The translations under genes were made by a program, and so were the position numbers. Positions 10,107-25,854 of a DNA stretch of 36,489 nt are shown here, in pieces. This DNA is from Bacteroidota bacterium (GTDB lineage Bacteria > Bacteroidota > Bacteroidia > B-17B0 > Aurantibacillaceae). Numbering within the stretch: position 1 is the stretch's first letter; the number at the start of each line of letters is the position of its first letter. The notes under the pieces are model-generated. The model did no database searches. It saw only the letters and a list, made by a program, of their open reading frames with translations, and was not told the origin of the DNA. The stretch spans positions 1-36,489 of the forward strand of contig JACDDR010000036.1 of assembly GCA_013816895.1 (NCBI GenBank), written 5' to 3'.

Positions 10107-11048
10107 TTAATTTATCTGTGGGGCAACGGTTGAGTTTTTCTCCCAGGTTGCTGCCTGCTTTTTCGAGAAACGGATACCAAGCATGATTTCATGGGTTCCG
10201 GTAGAATATTTCCTGATATTGGTTGTAGTATAATCGTATGAATATCCAATCATCAGGTAATTCTTATACATATAGCCTATTAAGAATGTAAAAGCGTCGT
10301 TGTGTCTGTAATTACCACCAATCCATACCTGTTCTTTATAAATTAATCGCATACCGCCTTCCAGTTTTGGCGGTGCCGGCACTGCGTATTTAATAAGGAA
10401 AGAAGGTTGAAGCTTAAAATCATCTCCTAAATCAAAAGTATACGCGCCATTCAGATTAAAATGACTCGCCAGCCTGCTTTTTGAAGATACGCCAGGGTAT
10501 AGACCAATAGGAGCCTGATACATTTGCGGAACGCTTAAGCCAAGATAAAATCTGTCTTTTTTGTGAAAGTAAATTCCCGCTCCCAGATCAGGAACGTAGG
10601 TTGTCTGATATGTTGTAAGAAGTGCCTGGTCACCGGTATCATGCAACACAAGCTTACTTCCGTCAATACCCCATTGCAGAATACCTCCGTTAAGTCCGAA
10701 AGATAATCTTACATCCTGTTTGTTTAATTTAAGATGATAGGCGTACGCAAAGGTAAGACCTGTTCTCCTGGTGGGGCCTACAATATCTGTATACAGATGC
10801 ATTCCCAGTCCCATATTTTTTGCTTTAATGGGTCCATGAATGGTTAACATGTAAGTTCTCGGAGCGTCTGTTATTCCAACCCACTGGTAACGGTTGTTGG
10901 ACCGTACATCTGCAAATTCATCTTTACCTGCTACGGCAGGATTAATTGCCAGTTCGTTGAGCATATATTGCGAGTACTGCGGAAGTTGCTGGGCAAAAGA
11001 GCAAACCGTTAGCAAACTAAAAAACCATATGTAATAAAATTTCTTCAT
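10107..11048 (-). CDS. PorP/SprF family T9SS outer-membrane protein
   Basis: The 313-residue protein starts with a signal peptide (about 1-19, ending CSFAQ) followed by QLPQYSQYMLNELAINPAVAGKDEF in two pieces, the hallmark opening of PorP/SprF proteins. The rest is a predicted outer-membrane beta barrel with repeated aromatic-rich strands and Gly turns, ending in EIMLGIRFSKK. SprF of Flavobacterium johnsoniae is needed to secrete and attach the adjacent SprB adhesin, and type B sorting-domain cargo usually has a PorP/SprF gene right next to it. Here the ATG is 4 bp downstream of the giant SprB-repeat gene's stop, so the two almost surely share a transcript and act as a cargo/partner pair. Assignment to the family is firm; the specific partner role is inferred from context. 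Confidence 0.95.
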   Translation of the reverse strand: MKKFYYIWFFSLLTVCSFAQQLPQYSQYMLNELAINPAVAGKDEFADVRSNNRYQWVGITDAPRTYMLTIHGPIKAKNMGLGMHLYTDIVGPTRRTGLTFAYAYHLKLNKQDVRLSFGLNGGILQWGIDGSKLVLHDTGDQALLTTYQTTYVPDLGAGIYFHKKDRFYLGLSVPQMYQAPIGLYPGVSSKSRLASHFNLNGAYTFDLGDDFKLQPSFLIKYAVPAPPKLEGGMRLIYKEQVWIGGNYRHNDAFTFLIGYMYKNYLMIGYSYDYTTTNIRKYSTGTHEIMLGIRFSKKQAATWEKNSTVAPQIN

Positions 11049-11052
11049 CTGG

Positions 11053-14000
11053 TTATCTGAATATGGTTAAAGGACCGGTATAAGGTTTAGGGTATGCCGG
11101 ATGATTTAAATTAATAATGTAATAATACGTTCCTACAGGTAAATCCTTGCCCTGGTACTTGCCGTCAAATGGCACATTGTAGCCCTTCGAATAAAACAAC
11201 AATTCACCCCAGCGGTTATAAACCTCAACCACATTATCAGTAAACTGGCCAATGTTATCAATGATCCATTTATCGTTCTTATTATCCGCATTCGGACTAA
11301 AGCCGTTCGGGATTTTTATCTCAGGATATAACAATACCTGCATCGTATCGCTGGCCGTACATCCATTGGCATCCGTTACTGAAACTGTATAAGTTGTATT
11401 AACGGTATTGGATGCAACCGGGTTGGTAAGAGAAGGGTTATCAAGCGTTAAAGCTGGCGACCATGTAAAGGTTACGCCTGTTGGTGAAGTAGGACTGCCG
11501 CCAATGGAAACATTCGAGAACAATGAAATGGTATACGTTGGGCCAGCATCCACCACCGGTAAAGGCAGTGAATTGATCACCACGGTATCCCTGTCAACAC
11601 AGGTAGACACACTTGACACCACTAATAAAACGTAGGTGCTGGTACCGGAAGCAGGCATAATATTCACGGTTGAAGAATTCGAAATTGAAACAGTACTTGT
11701 AATATTTGTCCAGTTATATCCTCCGCTTGCTCCAAGTGAATTATTGCCATTAAGAATAATAGATCCGCCGCTGCAGAAGGTGGAGTCTCTGCCCGCGTTC
11801 GCGTCCACCGTAACTGTCGGAACAATCTGAACAGTAGTAATAATAGTACAGCTATTCGCATCTACCGCGTTCAGCGTGTAATTTCCGGATAATACATTCG
11901 TGAGATTTTGTGAACTGCTGGTGAAGGAAGAACTGCTGGTCCAGTTATAGGTATAGGAAGGCGTTCCGCCCGTAAGGGTCACGCTGGCCGAACCATCGGC
12001 TGAAGTACTGCAGGATGAATTTGTAACTGTATTGGTTAAAGCAAGTGGTTGTGCCGGTCCGTTAATACTTGCCGTAGTAGTTATACTGCAACCTTTAGAA
12101 TCTATAACTGTGGCTGAATAATTTCCGGCACATAAAGAGAATTGAGGATTAGAGTTAGTGCCTGGTGTCCATGTGAAAGAATACGGCAAAATCCCCCCAC
12201 TTGGAATTAAAGTTATCTGTCCGTTACAATCACCAAAACATTTTATATTCTGAACATTGGATATACTTAATTGCATGGCAGGATTACCGGTAATTGTGAA
12301 AGACTGCAGCGCAATACAACCATCGGGAGCCGTAGCGGTTAAAGTAATAATGCCAGGGCAAACATTGGTAACAAATGGATTATTTCCACCAACACTCCAG
12401 CTATATGTCACTGCGCCCGCTGCAGTGCTTGTAGCAAGGGCATTAACGGATCCGGTACATGCGCCGAAACAGTTCACGTTGTTTTGCGTAGCTGTAATGG
12501 AAGGATTGTTAAAGTTACTAAGAGTAAACGCAGATGTTTTTGAACAACCGTTTAAATCCGTAACAGAAACAGAATAGTTACCCGGACCTATGTTTGTTAT
12601 GGATGATAAAGTAGATCCGGTTGGCGACCATAAAAAAGAATAGGGCCCTGGACCGCCTATGGGCACAATACTAATAGTTCCATTTGTGGAATTACATGTT
12701 GGAGGAGAAATGAAAGGCGAAAGAGTTAATCCTGGAGAAGATCCGATTGTTGTAGACGATGTTCTTATACAACCTTGTACATCTTGCATCTGAACAAAAT
12801 AACTGCCGGAACATAAACCGCTGATCACCGAATTAGTAACAGCATGACTCGTTAACCATGTATATGTAACGGGAGCAGTACCCCCTAAAGCCTGCACCGT
12901 AGCGGCGCCATTGCAGGAACCGGCACATTGCTCATTTAATATTGTAAAGTTTTCTCCTGCTATACCGGGCACGTTGCTTATTGGTACGTTGATGCTCTGG
13001 TTACACCCCACGTTGTCGGTAACCAGAACCTGGTACAATCCTGCACATAAGTTGGTTGCGGTTGGAGTATTGGCTCCGGAGGTCCAGCTGTATGTATATG
13101 GCCCAATCCCACCGCCAGCAGTAGCGATTGAAGTACCATTACATATATTACACGACGGCGATACTATAGCATTGGTAGCCGTAATTTGTGCCGGAGATGT
13201 AATCGAAGTAGTAAAATTATTGGTACAACCGTTGGAAGCCGTAACCATAAGGGTATAAACACCGTTGCATAAACCCGAGGCAATTGGTCCTGATTGTCCG
13301 TTACTCCAGTTTTCGGTAAACGGCGCTATACCATTTACGATAGAAGTTACAGTGGCTCCGCCTGCGCAGTTGCCAAAACAGATGTTAGCTGTTGTGTTGG
13401 TTGAAACAACAATATTTTGAACCGCTGCCACATTTACTGTTTGGGTAGACAAACAATTATTATTGTCTTTAATTTGAACAGTGAGTGTTCCTGCACAAAC
13501 GTTTATGATAACCGGAGAATTAGCTGCGACCGGCGTCCAGGTATAATTATAACCTGGTGTTCCACCTGTAGGGTTAAGATTTACAGAACCATTACAGATC
13601 CCATTACAAGTAGGCAAACCAACGTTTGGATTAATTGTTAGCGGCGCAGGCTGCGATATCGTTACTGCCGTAAACAGTATACAACTCATGGCATCTTTAA
13701 TTTGTGCTGAGTAAGTTCCTGAGCATAAATTTACAAGAGGGTTTACTGTAGATGGAGAAGGCGGTGAAATCCAGCTGATCGTATAACCCGGCGTTCCACC
13801 GGTAATTGTTGCAGGATTTATTGAAGCTGCTCCGGTACACATGGCGTTACATGAAATACTCGATGATGTAACCGGTGCTGAGCTTGGTCCGTTTGAATTA
13901 CTTAATGGGATCGTTACAGTGTTTGTACAGTTATTGGCATCAGCTACAACTACCGTGTAAATACCAGCTCCTAATCCGTTAGCTACTGAAGTAGTGGATA

Positions 14001-17000
14001 CAGCAGGGCTCCAAACAAAATTATAAGTAGGAGTTCCTCCGCTAACGAGAAGTGTAATAGCGCCATTATTTACCGAACAGGTTGCAGGAGCACTGGAAGG
14101 ATTAACATTTAAAAGTGGAGGATTACTTAGTGTAAAAGTTTGAAGAGCCTGACAACCATTCTGATCTTTTATTTGAACAGTATAATTACCCGCGCATAAA
14201 CCATTAATACTTTGTGTTGTAAATGTAGGAGGACCGGGTGTCCAGGTGTAATTCACAGTTCCAACAGCGTTGGCTGGTGTGCTTAGCGCAGCTCCGTTAC
14301 AGCTGGCGTTACAGGCTGGATTAGTAAACGTAACATTAGCAAGCACTGCCGGAGGATTAGTTAACGTGGTTACAGCGCTAACCTGGCAACCAGCATTGTC
14401 TGTTGCTATTAATGTATAGTTATTCGGGCATAGACCATTGGGATTCTGGCCAGATCCTGTGGGCGTCCAGTTAAAGTTCACAGTTCCCTGCTGGCCGGCA
14501 AGCGTGGTGGTAATACTTCCATTACACACAGCGTTACACAACGGACTGAAAGGTGCCAGCGTTGCAGTAAAGGCAGGTGGAGCTGTTACAGTAAATGTTT
14601 TTACTACCGAACAACCATTGGCGTCAGTAAGTGTGGCTGAATAACTTCCCGGGCATATACCTGTTGCGACTGATATTGTCGAAGGGCTTCCTGTCCAGCT
14701 AAAATTGTAATTCGGACTGCCTCCCGCCCCAACTAACGTAGCGGTGGCATTACAGGAGTTGGAACACGTAGCATTCAACGAAGTTAATGTGCTGGTTAAC
14801 AATGGAGGTTGGGTAATATTAATGGTATTTGTTTTTGTACATCCATTACCATCAGTTGCTACTACTGTATATACAGCAGGGCAAAGATTTAAAACCGTAG
14901 CTGTCGTGGATCCTGAAAAAGCTCCCACCGGTAACCAGTTATAGGATAAAGGCGCCGTGCCTCCGCTAGCATTGGCAACAATAGAACCGTTACAAGCATT
15001 AAAACATTGAACATTACTGGCTGTATTGGTCAATACAATAGCTGGCGGATTTATAAGATTAAATACCTGAGATTTTACACAGGAATTTGCATCTGTAGTA
15101 TTTAAAGTATACGCACCGGCGCAAAGATTGGTAACGGTTTGCGTACCTACACCTGTAATGGTTGCGGACGACCATGCGAAAGTATAGCCGGGGGTTCCGC
15201 CGGAGGTAACAACCGTTATTGATCCGTTACAGGAGGCATTACATTTAGGGTTTGTAACATTCGTACTTACTGTAAATGCTGGTGCTGTAGCAATATTTAT
15301 CGTTTGAGTAGTAACACAGCTGTTGGATTGTGAAACAGAAATAGCGTACGTACCGCTGATTAATGAACTACCGATAGAAACATTACCGATGTTAACAAAA
15401 CCTACGCCAATTGGTGTCCAGGTAAATCCAAATGGAGCAGTACCCGTTGCCGTAACGGTTGCTGATCCGGTATTTCCTCCAAAGCAATTTACCGACGTTG
15501 AAACAATAGACAAAGTAGGACCAGTGGGATTAGTAAGTAAACTTGATAGCGTTGTGGTACAACCCGCTCCGTCTGCTACCACAAGGGAATATACACCGGC
15601 ACCAAGACCAGTAAGACAACTTGCATTGCCGGCTACAGGCGACCAGGTAAAGGTATAACCCCCGCCGGTTCCACCACTTGGCGTTGCACAGATGCTTCCG
15701 TTATTAACGCCGCAACCGCTTGGTTGGGTAGTAGTAAACGTGGCAGTAATAGAGTTGGATTGCGTAACACTAAACGTTAAAACCTTTGAACAATTATTAC
15801 CGTCTTTCACTGTAAGAGTATATCCACCTATGCATAAACCATTAATTGAAGATGTTGTTTGTCCACCAGGGCTCCAGGAATACGTTAAAGGACCGGTACC
15901 TCCTGAAGCTGTTGCCGAAAGAACACCGTTGCAATTTGCAAAACATGTTGCATTGGTTTGCGTAGTATTAACAACAATAGCGGGCGGATTATTTAATGTA
16001 ATGGTTCCCGTATTTGCACATCCGTTATTATCTTTCACAATAACTGAGTAAGTTCCGGCGCAAAGATTGATTGCAGTTGACGTTGTTTGAGTTGGTGGTC
16101 CGGTGACATTCCATGTGTAGGTATAAGGAAGGACTCCCCCCGCCGGATTAGCAACCGCTGAACCGGTGCAGGCGCCAAAACATTGAATAGGTGTTCCGCC
16201 TGTTACAACCGAAACTGTTACTGTTTGAACAATTGTGGTGCTTACCGTAGCAACACAACCATTCGCATCTTTAATGCTGGCCGTGAAATTTCCAACACAC
16301 AAACCACTTATTGTCGTTCCGGTTCCAACCACTACGCTAACCGAATTGGTCCACGTTACCGTATAACCCGGAACACCGCCCGCAGGAGTAACCGTAGCCG
16401 CTCCACCGCACAAATTACAGCTTGATTGAGTTCCTGTAATGGCAGGTGTCAGAGCCGGTGGGTTGGAAATTGAAAAATTAACAGATTGCGAACAACCTTT
16501 AGAATCATTTACGTTTACAATATAATTACCGGCGCATAAACCAGAGAATATACCAGTTGTGTTTATCGTAAAAGGAAAAACATTTAACTGATAGGTGTAA
16601 GAAGGAGTTCCTCCATTAGCGGTAACGGTAGCTGAGCCGTTACAAAACCCGGCACAGCTCGGACTGGCCGTGTTGGCCGCAACGGTAATGGAAGTAGGCG
16701 CAACTAATGTTGTTGTAAATGTTGAAACACAGCCATTGGCATCTGTAACCGTTAAAGTGTAATTTCCGGCAAAAAGTCCTGAATTTGGATTACCTGTAAA
16801 TCCGTTAGACCAGTTTAAAGTATAACCAGGAGTTCCTCCCACCACTACTCCACTTAATGCCCCGTTAGAGCCCGTGTTACAGGAAGGCGGAGTGGGATTG
16901 ATTGTGGCGGATATCGCTGAAGTCGGCTGGCTAATGGAAACAGTTTTTGTAGCCACGCATCCATTGGCGTCAGTTGCAGTAAAGGTATAAACCTGGTTGG

Positions 17001-19665
17001 CACACACCCCGCCTACTACGCCACCTGCAACTGTACCAGTTGGGGTGGCCCACATTAATGTGTAACCGGGAGTACCACCTAAAACACTTCCCGACAAAGA
17101 ACCATTACAAACATTAAAACACGAAACCGAATTGGAAACAACCGAAGCCACCAGCACATTGGGTTGCGCCAGGCTGGTTGTAAAAGATTGTTTACAATTC
17201 TGATCTTTAATATATAGGGTATAAGTTCCCGCGCAAAGATTAGTATAAGGCGGATTTGTTGTTATAGATGCTGAAGTTGGTGTTACCAAAGTAAAGCTAT
17301 ATGCTCCTACCCCATTGGAAGGCACTGAATTTATAGACCCGTTACACACATTATTACAGGACAATGAGGTTGTTGTAATATTGGGGGTTATGCCCGGCGG
17401 TTGCTGTATAGTAAGAGTTACCTGGGTTGGTGCGCATAACGACGCGTCTTTTATACTCACAAAATAATTACCCTGGCACAGGTTGGTGGCGGTGGTAGTT
17501 CCGCCTGAAACAACTGAAGTCGTGGCCGGGCTCCAGGTAAAAGTATAAGGCGGGGTGCCGCCACTTACATTGACCGTTGCTGCACCTGAACAGGTACTGA
17601 AACAGGTTATGCTTTGTGTGGCAGAAGTTAAGGTAAATGCAGGCGGCGCGGTAATGGTGATAACCGACTGTGTTGTGCAACCGTTTCCATCTTTAGCTAA
17701 AACAGTGTATGTTCCTGCGCATTGCGATGTGATTGAAGATGTTGTTGAGATAATAGTGTTTCCTGCCGCAAACCAGGTAAACGTTGTTACTCCGAAACCT
17801 CCGGTAGAGCTCACAATAGCGGAACCCGTACAGGCGGCAGGACAGCTGATGTTACCTACGGTTGGCGTTATAACAATTGATGCAGGTTGTGTAATAACAA
17901 ACCCGAGCGTGTTGGTACACTGTGCTCCATTGTTTTTTATAGTTACAGTTTGTGTTCCGGCACATAAACCCGATGCAACATTTGTAGCGGAAGCGGCAGG
18001 ACTCCACGTATAAGTATATGGAGCAACTCCCCCGCTCACTGAAACTGAGGCTGTAGCATCGCATGTGCCAAAACAGGAAACGTTGGTTTGTGTAGGAGTA
18101 ATTGTTATCGCTGGTGGTTGGGTAATATTGGTGCTGGTTATTGCCTTGCACCCTTTAGTATCGGTTACAGTTGCCGAAATAGCACTTACGCATAGGTTGG
18201 TTACAGACGCAGTGCCTGCAGGCGGAACAATAAACGTGCTTCCTGTACTAAATGCAACTGTATACGATCCTGGGTTACCTCCCGATGGATTAATTACCAA
18301 TGAACCAGTACAATTTCCATTACATGCAATATTTGCAACAACCGATCCTGTTGAAACCGGCGGTGGCGAAGTTACTGTTTTTGTAATCGGGCCGCTGGAA
18401 CAACCATTTTTATCAGTAATGGTAAATGTATACACATTTGCGCATAAAGCTCCCAGTGTAAACCCTCCCGCTGTCGAAAATGTGGGAACCACTGCGGGCA
18501 ATACCGTTATAGTGTATGGTCCTATTCCTCCGGATGGATTTAAAGTCATAGTTCCATCACACACCGCATTACAACTTGTTGGTTTAATGAACGAACTTAA
18601 TGCGAAAGAAGGTGGAGTAAAATTAAAATTAGTGGCCCCAAAACTTCCATTAATAGTTAAAGGAATCTGCAAAAATGAATTATCATAAATTGAGATTACA
18701 TACTGGGATGGACAATCGCAGGCGCTAGAAATAGTATTACTCATTGGAACATTACTACCACTTAATAACGCTGAAGTATTTTGACAATTAATACCCGGGT
18801 TTCCATTAGAAACGTCAATTGTATAAGGTCCGGCAACGCAACTGGGATCAATTGTATAACTAAACACTCCGCTACACAGACCCGCACATTCCGGTTTTGT
18901 AGTAATGGTGGCGCCGCAAACTGCCGCAAGACTATTGTCCGTTAGTTTTGTACTTGAACCGAAATTTATATTTGCCGGTATACTTGTTCTTGAAGCGTTT
19001 GAGAAAGGAGCGTAAAAAGAAAACTTATTGGTTATAAAACTGCAATTGTCTTTAATAAAGAGTTTGTTTTTCACAAGGAAGAAAGAGGTATCGATTAAAA
19101 AAGTTGAACCTGTTCCTGAAACTTTTAGGTTACCTACTGAAAAAGAAGCCTTTCTGAAAAAATAAGTACCATTTTCAAATGTGGTTTCAAAACCCGACGC
19201 CTGGAACATACATCTGATCTTAAATTTACCGGTACCGAATTTTACATTGCTGCCAATTTCATAATATCCAAATGTGATACTATTCACCCCTGGCTTTAAG
19301 GAATTAAAATTTAAAGTAGATACAGCTTTCCAGGCCGATGCTGGGTTTAAATCAAAGGAACCGCCAATATTTAAAACAGATGCTCTGTCGCCATAAAAAT
19401 CAATCTTATTGGTATAATTTAAGCAGGTAAGTGACTGAATGTTATTTATTCCACTAACATTAATATCAATTTTTAACGATCCTGAATTATCATCAAAAAC
19501 CACATCTGTATTACCCGTAGGTACAAAATTTGCAGATTGACCGTTTGACGTTAAACTCCAGTGTTTGGGATCATTAAAATTACCGGAGCCTCCAACCCAA
19601 TAAAGAGTTTGGGAGCTCAGACTGCTAACTATTATAAATGAAACAAGTAAAAGTAAGGATCTCAT
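11053..19665 (-). CDS. Giant SprB-repeat surface protein, T9SS type B cargo
   Basis: A 2870-residue secreted protein. The signal peptide (1-19, ending SLSSQ) is followed by an N-terminal beta domain (20-250) opening LYWVGGSGNFNDPKHWS, common at the start of large Bacteroidota surface proteins. About 30 tandem SprB-type repeats of roughly 79 residues cover 255-2612. Each is marked by CxxxCxG, then GGTPxYTYxWSP, then CxGxYTVxVxDxxGC. Two PKD-like domains (2613-2781) lead to a gliding-motility-associated CHU_C/type B sorting domain (2782-2870: EIKIPNGFSPNADNKND start, YNRWGELLF, LPVGTYYYII). The expected fate is Sec export, T9SS translocation and display as a long filamentous adhesin or gliding protein. 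Four cysteines per repeat suggest disulfide-stabilised modules. The PorP/SprF gene 4 bp downstream is its likely partner. It is smaller than F. johnsoniae SprB (about 6500 residues), and what it binds is unknown. Confidence 0.96.
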   Translation of the reverse strand: MRSLLLLVSFIIVSSLSSQTLYWVGGSGNFNDPKHWSLTSNGQSANFVPTGNTDVVFDDNSGSLKIDINVSGINNIQSLTCLNYTNKIDFYGDRASVLNIGGSFDLNPASAWKAVSTLNFNSLKPGVNSITFGYYEIGSNVKFGTGKFKIRCMFQASGFETTFENGTYFFRKASFSVGNLKVSGTGSTFLIDTSFFLVKNKLFIKDNCSFITNKFSFYAPFSNASRTSIPANINFGSSTKLTDNSLAAVCGATITTKPECAGLCSGVFSYTIDPSCVAGPYTIDVSNGNPGINCQNTSALLSGSNVPMSNTISSACDCPSQYVISIYDNSFLQIPLTINGSFGATNFNFTPPSFALSSFIKPTSCNAVCDGTMTLNPSGGIGPYTITVLPAVVPTFSTAGGFTLGALCANVYTFTITDKNGCSSGPITKTVTSPPPVSTGSVVANIACNGNCTGSLVINPSGGNPGSYTVAFSTGSTFIVPPAGTASVTNLCVSAISATVTDTKGCKAITSTNITQPPAITITPTQTNVSCFGTCDATASVSVSGGVAPYTYTWSPAASATNVASGLCAGTQTVTIKNNGAQCTNTLGFVITQPASIVITPTVGNISCPAACTGSAIVSSTGGFGVTTFTWFAAGNTIISTTSSITSQCAGTYTVLAKDGNGCTTQSVITITAPPAFTLTSATQSITCFSTCSGAATVNVSGGTPPYTFTWSPATTSVVSGGTTTATNLCQGNYFVSIKDASLCAPTQVTLTIQQPPGITPNITTTSLSCNNVCNGSINSVPSNGVGAYSFTLVTPTSASITTNPPYTNLCAGTYTLYIKDQNCKQSFTTSLAQPNVLVASVVSNSVSCFNVCNGSLSGSVLGGTPGYTLMWATPTGTVAGGVVGGVCANQVYTFTATDANGCVATKTVSISQPTSAISATINPTPPSCNTGSNGALSGVVVGGTPGYTLNWSNGFTGNPNSGLFAGNYTLTVTDANGCVSTFTTTLVAPTSITVAANTASPSCAGFCNGSATVTANGGTPSYTYQLNVFPFTINTTGIFSGLCAGNYIVNVNDSKGCSQSVNFSISNPPALTPAITGTQSSCNLCGGAATVTPAGGVPGYTVTWTNSVSVVVGTGTTISGLCVGNFTASIKDANGCVATVSTTIVQTVTVSVVTGGTPIQCFGACTGSAVANPAGGVLPYTYTWNVTGPPTQTTSTAINLCAGTYSVIVKDNNGCANTGTITLNNPPAIVVNTTQTNATCFANCNGVLSATASGGTGPLTYSWSPGGQTTSSINGLCIGGYTLTVKDGNNCSKVLTFSVTQSNSITATFTTTQPSGCGVNNGSICATPSGGTGGGYTFTWSPVAGNASCLTGLGAGVYSLVVADGAGCTTTLSSLLTNPTGPTLSIVSTSVNCFGGNTGSATVTATGTAPFGFTWTPIGVGFVNIGNVSIGSSLISGTYAISVSQSNSCVTTQTINIATAPAFTVSTNVTNPKCNASCNGSITVVTSGGTPGYTFAWSSATITGVGTQTVTNLCAGAYTLNTTDANSCVKSQVFNLINPPAIVLTNTASNVQCFNACNGSIVANASGGTAPLSYNWLPVGAFSGSTTATVLNLCPAVYTVVATDGNGCTKTNTINITQPPLLTSTLTSLNATCSNSCNATATLVGAGGSPNYNFSWTGSPSTISVATGICPGSYSATLTDANGCSVVKTFTVTAPPAFTATLAPFSPLCNAVCNGSITTTLAGQQGTVNFNWTPTGSGQNPNGLCPNNYTLIATDNAGCQVSAVTTLTNPPAVLANVTFTNPACNASCNGAALSTPANAVGTVNYTWTPGPPTFTTQSINGLCAGNYTVQIKDQNGCQALQTFTLSNPPLLNVNPSSAPATCSVNNGAITLLVSGGTPTYNFVWSPAVSTTSVANGLGAGIYTVVVADANNCTNTVTIPLSNSNGPSSAPVTSSSISCNAMCTGAASINPATITGGTPGYTISWISPPSPSTVNPLVNLCSGTYSAQIKDAMSCILFTAVTISQPAPLTINPNVGLPTCNGICNGSVNLNPTGGTPGYNYTWTPVAANSPVIINVCAGTLTVQIKDNNNCLSTQTVNVAAVQNIVVSTNTTANICFGNCAGGATVTSIVNGIAPFTENWSNGQSGPIASGLCNGVYTLMVTASNGCTNNFTTSITSPAQITATNAIVSPSCNICNGTSIATAGGGIGPYTYSWTSGANTPTATNLCAGLYQVLVTDNVGCNQSINVPISNVPGIAGENFTILNEQCAGSCNGAATVQALGGTAPVTYTWLTSHAVTNSVISGLCSGSYFVQMQDVQGCIRTSSTTIGSSPGLTLSPFISPPTCNSTNGTISIVPIGGPGPYSFLWSPTGSTLSSITNIGPGNYSVSVTDLNGCSKTSAFTLSNFNNPSITATQNNVNCFGACTGSVNALATSTAAGAVTYSWSVGGNNPFVTNVCPGIITLTATAPDGCIALQSFTITGNPAMQLSISNVQNIKCFGDCNGQITLIPSGGILPYSFTWTPGTNSNPQFSLCAGNYSATVIDSKGCSITTTASINGPAQPLALTNTVTNSSCSTSADGSASVTLTGGTPSYTYNWTSSSSFTSSSQNLTNVLSGNYTLNAVDANSCTIITTVQIVPTVTVDANAGRDSTFCSGGSIILNGNNSLGASGGYNWTNITSTVSISNSSTVNIMPASGTSTYVLLVVSSVSTCVDRDTVVINSLPLPVVDAGPTYTISLFSNVSIGGSPTSPTGVTFTWSPALTLDNPSLTNPVASNTVNTTYTVSVTDANGCTASDTMQVLLYPEIKIPNGFSPNADNKNDKWIIDNIGQFTDNVVEVYNRWGELLFYSKGYNVPFDGKYQGKDLPVGTYYYIINLNHPAYPKPYTGPLTIFR
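11830..18903 (-). repeat. Array of about 30 SprB-type coding repeats
   Basis: About 7.1 kb of the giant gene consists of imperfect in-frame units near 236 bp, roughly 79 codons. I counted 30 starts by the C-x3-C-x-G or C-x3-NG motif at the head of each unit; the first, near 18900, is divergent and the classical ones begin near 18585. Units differ at the DNA level, with no long identical stretches seen by eye, so the array looks old rather than freshly expanded. The repeats explain the many antisense reading frames in this stretch. Confidence 0.9.
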
Positions 19666-23319: not shown

Positions 23320-25854
23320 TTACCTGGCAATCAATAGTTTTTTGGTTTCCACAGTAATCCCGTTATTCTTAATACTTACAAAATAAATTCCAGGAGTTAA
23401 CCCGGTAAGGTTTATTTTATTTTCAAATTGTGCTGCTCCAGAATAGATGGTTTTTCCTAAAACATCCATAATTTCCATTTCATTCAGGCCGCTTAATTTA
23501 TTCTCAAAAGCGATTGTTATTTCATTTGACGCAGGATTCGGATAAATCGTGATCAGGTTTGCATTCTTGTTTTTAAACTCCGGTATCCCGTTCGTAGTCA
23601 ACAATCCCATCTTCATGCCATTACCAAAACTGGTTACCCATATTTCATTCTGATTGTAGGGATTAAAGAAAACCCGTTCCGGTTGCTGGAAAGGATAACT
23701 CTGTACCAGTGAAAAAGTTGGTGTTGCCGCGTTTATATTGTTCGACATCCACAAACCGTTAGTTTCACTTGTCATATAGATCTGATTGGCATTAGCAGGA
23801 TTAAAGGTGCAGGATGTTACGCGGTCAATAACCGAAGCGTTAGTTAACTTGGTCCAGCTTGTTCCACGATTAGTAGTTTTATATAAACCTCCCAAACCAT
23901 TTGGCGCTCCGCCCCAGCCGCTGAACACACCAGCGTACCATGTATTTTGTGATGCATCAAAGGGATCTACCACAATATCTTTTGTCCAGTAATACATGCC
24001 GGTATGCGATACATCCGTCCAGGAATTTAAAACGGGATCATAAATAAATACGCCGGAGCTGGCCGTAAATACACCGGATGAATTCCTTCTGCCTGAGTAG
24101 GTAGCAACCATTTTCCCATCGTTTAACACAACGATACTCGCAGGGTGCTTTTCGGTTCTCGGAGGATTGGGCAAAAGCGTCCAGGTAGATGTTGCAAGGT
24201 TATTCAAGTCACTTGTAACGTAAATTCCTCCCAGTCCCGTTCCGCCACTGTAGTGAATAACACTGGCATAGGCACGGTTGGCATTATTAGGATCGAGCGT
24301 TATCCAAAATACGGGATGATTAAATACTTTTAAATTTTGCCAGGTGCCTCCGTTGTTTGTTGAATAAATAATTTTACCATTGGCATCCGTTGCATCCAGA
24401 ATATTGTCCTGTAACCGTGTGCTTTGGTACATATCATGAATGTTGGAGGTTCCGGCAAACAGCGTACCGTTAGTTGGATGCTGTGCGACACGATACATCG
24501 AATTAGCAGTACTTCCCGTATAATTAAATGACCAGGAGTTTCCGGCATCCGTACTTTTTATTCCCCTGATATCAGAAAAACAAGACCACATGGTATTCGC
24601 ATTCATCCAATGTACTTGCCAGCAGGTTGTGTTTTCAATCCCCGAACTTTGGTAGCTCTGCCCTGTAGGAGTATTTGCCGCTACCGGATGCTGTCCGGCA
24701 TTGTTCACGTAAGCCTGTTGCCAGGATGTTCCTCCATTCGAAGTCCGGTGAACAAAACCAAAATCCCCAAAAATAACTGAATTCGAATTATTAGGTGCTA
24801 CCGCAATGGCAAAAGGACATTCGCCGTAGGTCCAGTTTTTATCGCCTCCCTGCCCGCTCCAGCCGGTGTTAATATTCTGGTTACCACTTGTACTAAAAAC
24901 ATGAGACCAGGATGTTCCCGCGTTTGTTGTTTTGATGATATCAGGAACGCTGTTACTGTTGCTTCCTGCTAGATAAACGGTATTAATATCATTGCCAGCC
25001 ATGCCCACAAACATTGGAAAATCAGTAGCCGTATTAATTCCTGTTAATTTCGGCGCCCAGTTTCCGGAACCATAATCAACCGAATAAACACCAGTGGGAA
25101 AACCGAAATAAGCCGAGCCAACCAGGCCCACATATACATTAGCTGCATTTGCGGTAATGCAAAATAACCGTGTAGTTGTTCCTGATTTTGCACCTGCGAA
25201 TGACCAGATCCTGTCGGTTGATGGAATTCCCGTAATGGTTGATGTTGTCCAGGAAGACCCACCGTTGGTTGAAACCAGAAGTCCATCGTTCGTTCCTATA
25301 TAAATGTTATTGCCATCGAAAAAAACTCCGCCCACAACATTTCCCGCACCACTGTTTGTAGCAGTATGAATACTTGTGAAGGTATTTCCTCCGTTAGAAG
25401 AAAAATAAATATTGCTGTAATACGAAATAATCAGCCTGTTAGGATTATTGTAATCGGCGTCGATGCTAAAGGTTTCCTGTGTATTATCAGGGTTCCCGGG
25501 CAGTGCGGACCAGGTAACACCATTATCGGTACTTTTTTTAGGGATAATCATATTGTTGGCATAGCTGACTGTATATAATAATCCAACGCTTGAAGTAAAG
25601 CACACTTTGGAATTATGCCCACCGATCACCTGCTGAAAGTTAACCTGTGAGTAGGAGTCGCCAAAGGTTGTTGAATGAAACAGCTCGCCCATATCGCAGG
25701 CCACGTAATACTCGTTATTATTTGCAGGATTAATAGATAGGGCGAATAATGCGCCTCCTCCTCCGATACCTTTTGACGAAAAGGATGCAGGTTGCGAATA
25801 GACGTTCAGGATCAGTCCTGAAAGGAAAACCAAACAAAGATTTTTCATGGTCAT
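23320..25854 (-). CDS. Secreted Asp-box (VPS10/GH74-like) beta-propeller protein with T9SS tail
   Basis: The 844-residue protein has a signal peptide (1-20) and a long propeller region with at least eight Asp-box motifs of the S/T-x-D/N-x-G-x-T/S-W/F form, for example STDNGVTW, SSNGGNTF, STNGGSSW, TTNAGTSW, TSNGGTSW, STDAGNSW, STNNGGTW and TTNRGTSW. The opening (GIGGGGALFALSINP) and the late WGGAPNGLGGLYKTTNRG recall GH74 xyloglucanase or sortilin-like two-propeller proteins. I cannot point to the catalytic acidic pair, so enzymatic activity is not claimed. Residues from about 770 form a T9SS type A sorting domain (ITIYPNPASNEITIAF, LTPGIYFVSI, KKLLIAR end). It would be surface-exposed or released. 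It converges with the esterase gene, and the two could act on the same extracellular polymer, which is inference only. Confidence 0.85.
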   Translation of the reverse strand: MTMKNLCLVFLSGLILNVYSQPASFSSKGIGGGGALFALSINPANNNEYYVACDMGELFHSTTFGDSYSQVNFQQVIGGHNSKVCFTSSVGLLYTVSYANNMIIPKKSTDNGVTWSALPGNPDNTQETFSIDADYNNPNRLIISYYSNIYFSSNGGNTFTSIHTATNSGAGNVVGGVFFDGNNIYIGTNDGLLVSTNGGSSWTTSTITGIPSTDRIWSFAGAKSGTTTRLFCITANAANVYVGLVGSAYFGFPTGVYSVDYGSGNWAPKLTGINTATDFPMFVGMAGNDINTVYLAGSNSNSVPDIIKTTNAGTSWSHVFSTSGNQNINTGWSGQGGDKNWTYGECPFAIAVAPNNSNSVIFGDFGFVHRTSNGGTSWQQAYVNNAGQHPVAANTPTGQSYQSSGIENTTCWQVHWMNANTMWSCFSDIRGIKSTDAGNSWSFNYTGSTANSMYRVAQHPTNGTLFAGTSNIHDMYQSTRLQDNILDATDANGKIIYSTNNGGTWQNLKVFNHPVFWITLDPNNANRAYASVIHYSGGTGLGGIYVTSDLNNLATSTWTLLPNPPRTEKHPASIVVLNDGKMVATYSGRRNSSGVFTASSGVFIYDPVLNSWTDVSHTGMYYWTKDIVVDPFDASQNTWYAGVFSGWGGAPNGLGGLYKTTNRGTSWTKLTNASVIDRVTSCTFNPANANQIYMTSETNGLWMSNNINAATPTFSLVQSYPFQQPERVFFNPYNQNEIWVTSFGNGMKMGLLTTNGIPEFKNKNANLITIYPNPASNEITIAFENKLSGLNEMEIMDVLGKTIYSGAAQFENKINLTGLTPGIYFVSIKNNGITVETKKLLIAR

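Follow-up and report, generated by a model that had tools for sequence, protein, structure and literature searches.

How are the beads of a long bacterial surface fibre joined to one another, and what sets a few of them apart from the rest? In Bacteroidota, SprB-repeat adhesins are surface proteins of great length; they bear the load when cells attach and, in certain species, when they glide. One of them is encoded on contig JACDDR010000036.1 of a Bacteroidota bacterium (assembly GCA_013816895.1), of which positions 1 to 36,489 make up the window, that is, the whole stretch of DNA analysed here; it contains 30 tandem SprB-type immunoglobulin (Ig)-like units. The original prediction for this array held that units 14, 21 and 27 are a distinct subtype recurring every 6–7 units, either by duplication of a block of repeats or as a regularly placed structural joint in the fibre. 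The distinct subtype proved to be real, while its 6–7-unit periodicity was not confirmed. We consider it likely, from the cysteines of this array and of related ones, that the units form a disulfide daisy chain in which units 14, 21 and 27 represent a subtype with an alternative joint.

The gene product matches the Pfam SprB repeat profile (PF13573) over 23 stretches (E 5.1e-124, 404 bits against a cut-off of 28), CHU_C (PF13585; E 8.2e-22, 77.6 bits against a cut-off of 27) and TIGR04131 of NCBIfam (55.3 bits, cut-off 35), and the adjoining barrel gene at 10107–11048 matches TIGR03519 with 279 bits. This combination of SprB repeats, CHU_C/TIGR04131 and a PorP/SprF-family barrel next door therefore identifies it, as far as sequence goes, as a type IX secretion system (T9SS) type-B, SprB-repeat surface adhesin. 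DNA tandem repeats were not found within the array.

The head of a canonical unit (CxxxCNG) carries two of its four cysteines, C1 and C2; the other two, C3 and C4, belong to the motifs LCAGxY and DxNGC, respectively. All 30 head motifs are present and had been numbered correctly; in units 14, 21 and 27 the C1 codon begins at 15714, 14079 and 12696, respectively, 14–21 nucleotides away from where the heads had been placed. These three units have, exactly as first described, the heads CGVNNG, CSVNNG and CNSTNG, the middles GLGAGVY, GLGAGIY and IGPGNY, and tails of the LxNxxGP or LSNFNNP kind. Their second head cysteine is indeed gone, but not by mere substitution as had been thought, since the head is one residue shorter, and they are without a pair of cysteines, C2 and C3, not just one. 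Both are missing in exactly six of the 30 units (9, 14, 15, 21, 27 and 30; called by script in units 2–30 and by eye in unit 1), of which 9 and 30 had already been noticed to be without C2 and unit 15 had been overlooked. Unit 14 still totals four cysteines, via a relocated pair at residues 1326 and 1350 in strands B and E. Both of these are kept in six of seven orthologous sequences and neither in the remaining one (L032), the seven being the window and six full-length orthologs (L031, L033, L034, L032, L037 and L040; best segments 74 to 42% identical); eight further loci with partial or weaker matches were left out of the unit-by-unit comparison. Including the two terminal Ig-like domains, 31 and 32, C1 is found in units 1–31 of the window and C4 in units 2–32, which is therefore the pattern of one unbroken chain with 31 staples. 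Unit 1 has no C4 and domain 32 no C1 in all seven sequences (ends inspected by eye), and domains 31 (C1 and C4) and 32 (C4 without C1) are predicted to end the disulfide chain. The junctions after units 14, 21 and 27 keep the C1/C4 staple cysteines.

Do other arrays follow the same pattern? The first set comprised 80 regions of other genomes, which yielded 1406 units from 99 proteins, in 134 runs of two units or more. The second, for which the rules were fixed beforehand and 6 runs already in the first set were dropped, comprised 60 regions of one family centred on G077, with 57 proteins, 156 runs and 729 units. Survey regions were chosen from the best-scoring matches listed, so sampling was not random. 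Both sets were restricted to open frames of 250 residues or more and to runs of two units or more (79 of the 80 and 51 of the 60 regions yielded any), units with an unplaceable C1, C3 or C4 column were excluded, and the comparison of array ends was confined to runs with three units or more (115 of 134 and 101 of 156). In the two-by-two tables below, rows give presence or absence of the first feature named and columns those of the second.

C2 and C3 agree in 1383 of the 1406 first-set units ([[293,8],[15,1090]]). Since the two are gained and lost as one, a disulfide inside the unit is implied. The commonest unit is a two-cysteine type lacking both (1090 of 1406), and in the second set they are both absent from 728 of 729 units. 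Strand-B and strand-E cysteines, of the kind seen in unit 14, tend to occur together in the C2-less units of the first set ([[9,5],[4,1087]]), and neither was found in units of the second. Seven units have C1 and C2 without C3. In L104, L103 and L096 such a unit closes the array, and in L078 two of them form the final pair, as if a partnerless C1 were bonded to C2; in L095 and L085 they lie away from the array end.

C1 behaves differently, as its partner appears to be in the neighbouring unit. In the first set C1 of unit i is associated with C4 of unit i+1 ([[1254,4],[8,6]], p 1e-10), while there is no association of C1 and C4 within one unit (p 0.43) and none with the opposite neighbour, C1 of unit i+1 against C4 of unit i (p 1). 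A cysteine in the tail is found in all eight C1-less units which precede a C4 and in none of the six which precede no C4, against a background of 11 in 1258 units with C1. Array ends show the corresponding losses: C4 is missing from 19 of 115 first units as compared to 10 of 1253 others, and C1 from 12 of 115 last units as compared to 14 of 1253 others. AlphaFold2 models of units 13–17 (mean predicted local distance difference test score, pLDDT, 92.1; predicted template modelling score, pTM, 0.54) and 20–24 (pLDDT 93.8, pTM 0.67) put C1 and C2 in the A–B loop, C3 in the E–F turn and C4 in the F–G turn. In an Ig-like sandwich the A–B and E–F connections are at one pole and F–G at the other; therefore C2 and C3 could bond within the unit, and the only C4 within reach of C1 would be that of the following unit.

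The second set gave the same picture. When either C1 or a tail cysteine of unit i is counted against C4 of unit i+1, all 573 of 573 junctions balance ([[566,0],[0,7]]), and C1 and C4 of the same unit are again independent (p 1.0). C4 is missing more often from first units (6 of 101 versus 7 of 518, p 0.011). The 17 informative junctions have 37–61% best identity to the first set and are therefore not copies of first-set cases; the seven double losses among them fall into about six groups.

Several points weigh against a chain of this kind. The second set is not a new family, as the G077 family had supplied five of the first 80 regions, and when these five are removed the first set gives [[1206,4],[8,1]] for C1(i) and C4(i+1) (p 0.036) and [[1214,4],[0,1]] for the balance (p 0.004), so that, beyond the G077 family, the evidence consists largely of the eight tail-cysteine substitutions found in three proteins (L109, L102 and L121). 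The p-values overstate independence, as informative junctions are concentrated mostly in 6 proteins of the first set and in 12 of the second, where the ten tail-cysteine junctions are mostly more than 60% identical to each other and probably of one origin. The excess of C1-less last units is not significant in the second set (6 of 101 versus 17 of 518, p 0.24). Four of the 1272 first-set junctions have C1 and no C4 next; three of them have an extra cysteine, which lies in the tail in L087 and in strand G in L088 and L140, and the head assignment of the fourth, L139, is doubtful. As many as 96 of 115 first units keep C4, for some of which inspection by eye suggests a pairing with non-SprB domains or N-terminal cysteines, and the comparison of upstream cysteines between first units (90 of 96 versus 19 of 19) is uninformative as a contrast. 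The unit tree is poorly resolved, with only four supported independent pairs for its co-change test (the tree-based independent-pair tests have four and two). The pTM values leave domain–domain orientation uncertain, the cysteines having been placed from secondary structure, and C1 and C4 might conceivably serve as metal or redox sites instead. With all this in mind we take the two sets to indicate that a substitute cysteine arose about four times and that double losses occurred independently several times, always in the direction predicted. In five arrays that start near the N-terminus (L075, L083, L092, L099 and L104) a cysteine, identified by eye, sits just past the apparent signal peptide (AQC or AQSC) and is a possible partner for C4 of the first unit.

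What are units 14, 21 and 27 then? Their six-residue short head is retained at units 14 and 21 in all seven orthologous sequences and at unit 27 in six, so that the subtype keeps its places in the array down to 42% identity. Short heads are also present at units 11 and 25 in all seven, with C2 in six of seven at each; elsewhere units alternate between the four- and two-cysteine types among orthologs, above all in L040. With similarity averaged across every pairing of the seven sequences and unit means removed, the pairs 14/21, 14/27 and 21/27 are the three highest of 406, falling to ranks 26, 40 and 51 once head, LCAG motif and tail are masked. In a tree of 215 units, which omits the unit-1 rows, the subtype label changes twice (7 times with masking) as compared to 22.3 for shuffled labels, and a single clade is not rejected (approximately unbiased test, p-AU 0.878, masked 0.739). 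The three units thus cluster in the tree, as the original prediction had supposed, and probably represent a subtype shared by descent.

The original prediction also noted an irregular GG loop in the unit following each of them. This applies strictly to units 15 and 28; unit 22 has instead an insertion before an intact GG, and in the window alone the association is not significant (Fisher p 0.10). Permutations within each array make it clearer. A short head is followed by an irregular B–C loop in the next unit in 45 cases against 25.7 expected in the first set and in 35 against 27.7 in the second (p 0.011), and it goes with the absence of QP from its own tail (154 against 72.7; second set 56 against 49.6, p 0.026), while it is not associated with a change in the B–C loop of its own unit (23 against 24.7; 31 against 31.1) or in the tail of the previous one (50 against 62.9; 37 against 36.5). 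A QP, EP or PP tail is found in 23 of 177 two-cysteine units with a short head and 849 of 1095 other units in the first set, and in 34 of 90 and 269 of 483 in the second. To judge by these sequence counts, the irregular loop after an odd unit is a family-wide tendency. The A–B loop, the tail and the B–C loop of the next unit should all meet at the same junction. A structural joint is in this way supported by the covariation of own tail and next loop, while its regular placement is not: the gaps of 7 and 6 units give p 0.147.

Could the short-head units be simply two-cysteine units drifting without a structural role, alike by chance convergence at three short motifs? The two-cysteine type is after all the commonest, clustering is only moderate when the motif columns are masked, and the weak GG association in the window would fit as well. 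We think this unlikely, since drift would not hold the short head in place at units 14, 21 and 27 while other units switch between types, nor make it covary, within arrays and in both sets, with its own tail and the loop of the next unit.

Duplication of a 6–7-unit block fares no better. With short heads shared at units 11, 14, 21, 25 and 27 the series is not periodic. In ortholog-averaged comparisons, the flanks 15–20 and 22–27 show no excess similarity (p 0.78), nor do the following units 15/22/28 (p 0.74) or the preceding ones 13/20/26 (p 0.42), and none of the offsets 1–19 reaches p 0.05, the lowest being 0.059 at offset 13. For the window units alone, offsets 6 and 7 give p 0.41 and 0.17; offsets 9, 13 and 15 have uncorrected p of 0.02–0.05, rising above 0.05 once orthologs are added. 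A copied block of 6–7 units is therefore unsupported, with no correspondence between flanking units and no significant offset, and we rejected it. The odd units might still be relics of an old duplication of this size, the other units having diverged beyond recognition, and there is something to be said for it: the three units do cluster, block duplications do exist in two orthologs, and in some arrays short heads recur with the best similarity period (4 in L104, L133, L134 and L103, 3 in L096 and L084). We nevertheless regard such a relic as quite unlikely, as the flanks do not correspond, masking the subtype columns weakens the cluster, the ortholog copies are of 4 units and not 6–7, and one array (L078, G007:C69) spaces its short heads exactly 7, 7, 7 in a 28-unit run in which offset-7 similarity is absent. 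The ortholog duplications are one extra copy of units 6–9 in L034 and two extra copies of units 25–28 in L037, seen as tandem four-unit copies at different places of the orthologous arrays (list units 5–12 of L034, units 25–36 of L037). Each duplicated block contains an odd unit, and one L037 odd unit within the copied blocks is closest to L037 unit 21, not 27. Regular short-head spacing over 29 other arrays gives a combined p of 1.5e-6, on which we do not rely because several of these arrays are near relatives (L075/L083, L104/L146 and L088/L140), some consist of short heads in adjacent runs, and many of the regular ones also have block similarity.

A classical Ig-style bond between C1 and C4 of one unit, with the neighbour covariation a by-product of array ends and indels, is very improbable: the two cysteines are near-universal in units, but within a unit one is lost independently of the other (p 0.43 and 1.0) while losses are paired between neighbours in one direction only, and the modelled secondary structure puts them at opposite poles.

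Structural relatives are in agreement with a tandem Ig-like fibre. The GhpA-type grappling hook is a heptameric hook assembly. The top eight structural matches (VIA-align) are tandem Ig-like fragments of GhpA from Aureispira sp. CCB-QB1 (PDB 9flp, 9fls, 9flu–9fly and 9g8b; Z 10.9–13.5), which also takes ranks 1, 2, 13 and 16 in Foldseek and is the best match of a profile search (E 9.9e-19); the single-sequence search of the PDB with P0001 returned only two phage decoration proteins (E 0.0024 and 0.019). GhpA likewise has homologous tandem Ig-like domains, and in its residues 1200–1483 three successive domains each have one cysteine at C1 and one at C4, as here. It differs in its length of 5898 residues, in an identity of only 16–21% and in the absence of the C2/C3 pair from residues 1200–1483. 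A C1(i)–C4(i+1) bond may already be visible in the deposited GhpA structures. Titin I65–I70 (3b43; Z 10.6) is alike in general fold and beads-on-a-string layout; at 12% identity we claim no kinship.

In SprB–SprF pairs of the Flavobacterium johnsoniae type, gliding is driven by the adhesin, which travels along a track in the periplasm. F. johnsoniae SprB has the same repeat family (PF13573), a T9SS type-B C-terminal domain and an adjoining PorP/SprF-family gene. A PorP/SprF relative, 64–84% identical, also lies downstream of the adhesin in all six full-length orthologs. According to the available portions of PMC12635249, gliding in F. johnsoniae requires two cysteines in the C-terminal tail of SprF. 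This pair is not present in the partner from the window, whose single cysteine, residue 16, lies close to the N-terminus, and we therefore do not call the protein a gliding adhesin; it may be static and not carried on a gliding track. The disulfide described in those portions of PMC12635249 joins SprF to GldK and not one repeat to another. SprB repeats are named in the accessible part of PMC7073777, and the accessible parts of PMC12635249, PMC9870892, PMC9143113 and PMC12618676 describe no repeat disulfides or subtypes. The searched literature, to the extent of its available text and with the GhpA structure paper outside that coverage, contains no report of disulfides between SprB repeats. The window also encodes, at 23320–25854 near the adhesin gene, a T9SS type-A secreted protein with a C-terminal Por_Secre_tail domain. 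Coordinates of the features are collected in Table 1.

Table 1. Adhesin locus and the units discussed in the text (window coordinates; aa, amino acids; CDS, coding sequence; ORF, open reading frame).
Feature	Position	Strand	Remarks
SprB-repeat, T9SS type-B adhesin CDS (predicted)	11053..19665	minus	2870 aa, one ORF; Pfam and NCBIfam profiles
Array of 30 SprB-type Ig-like units	11773..18918	minus	unit 1 from aa 250, unit 30 to aa 2631
Unit 9	16687..16911	minus	full-length head; C2 absent, C3 absent
Unit 14	15517..15744	minus	head CGVNNG short; C2/C3 absent; NPTGP tail; relocated Cys at aa 1326/1350
Unit 15	15274..15516	minus	next after 14; C2, C3 absent; B–C loop without GG in 6/7 orthologous sequences
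Unit 21	13882..14109	minus	head CSVNNG short; C2/C3 absent; NSNGP tail
Unit 22	13639..13881	minus	next after 21; B–C loop insertion before GG
Unit 25	12958..13182	minus	conserved short head CNICNG; C2 and C3 kept in window; SN..G tail
Unit 27	12502..12726	minus	head CNSTNG short; C2/C3 absent; NFNNP tail
Unit 28	12271..12501	minus	next after 27; B–C loop without GG in 7/7 orthologous sequences
Two terminal Ig-like domains (31, 32)	11320..11814	minus	boundaries approximate; ends of 7 orthologous sequences inspected by eye
CHU_C / T9SS type-B C-terminal sorting domain	11101..11319	minus	aa 2783–2855/2856
PorP/SprF-family outer membrane partner	10107..11048	minus	313 aa; next gene downstream

From the sequence facts, the paired losses, the conservation of position and the direction of covariation we infer bonds, geometry and a mechanical result as follows. 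The protein would form a fibre on the cell surface, with about 30 SprB-type Ig-like units; the T9SS would export it and the PorP/SprF-like barrel would serve as its anchor. C2 in the A–B loop and C3 in the E–F turn would form an optional disulfide within the unit, gained or lost together, which would only stiffen the pole of the unit beside the joint. C1 in the A–B loop and C4 in the F–G turn, at opposite poles, should not meet within one unit; C1 of unit i would be bonded to C4 of unit i+1, so that disulfides would link the fibre into a daisy chain. Units 14, 21 and 27, with the A–B loop one residue shorter and without the C2–C3 bond and the QPP tail, would form an alternative joint with the unusual B–C loop of the next unit and still keep the C1–C4 staple. 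The spacing from C4 of unit i+1 to C1 of unit i+2 is usually 25–27 residues, and the path of force from disulfide to disulfide would run through about 25 residues per two units, or roughly 9 nm. Two folded Ig-like domains are of about this length, so that the fibre would hardly extend and unfolding under load would be unlikely.

As to the family as a whole, we lean slightly towards the view that throughout Bacteroidota the SprB-type adhesins form covalent daisy chains, which force could not unravel and in which short-head beads provide programmed bends or hinges at fixed positions. If the beads are disulfide-linked, the fibre would be mechanically unlike the unfoldable springs of other tandem Ig-like proteins and would depend on periplasmic oxidation before export by the T9SS; reductants could open it, making its mechanics directly testable. 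By the junction rule, the starts, ends, breaks and non-standard joints of such chains would be readable from sequence alone.

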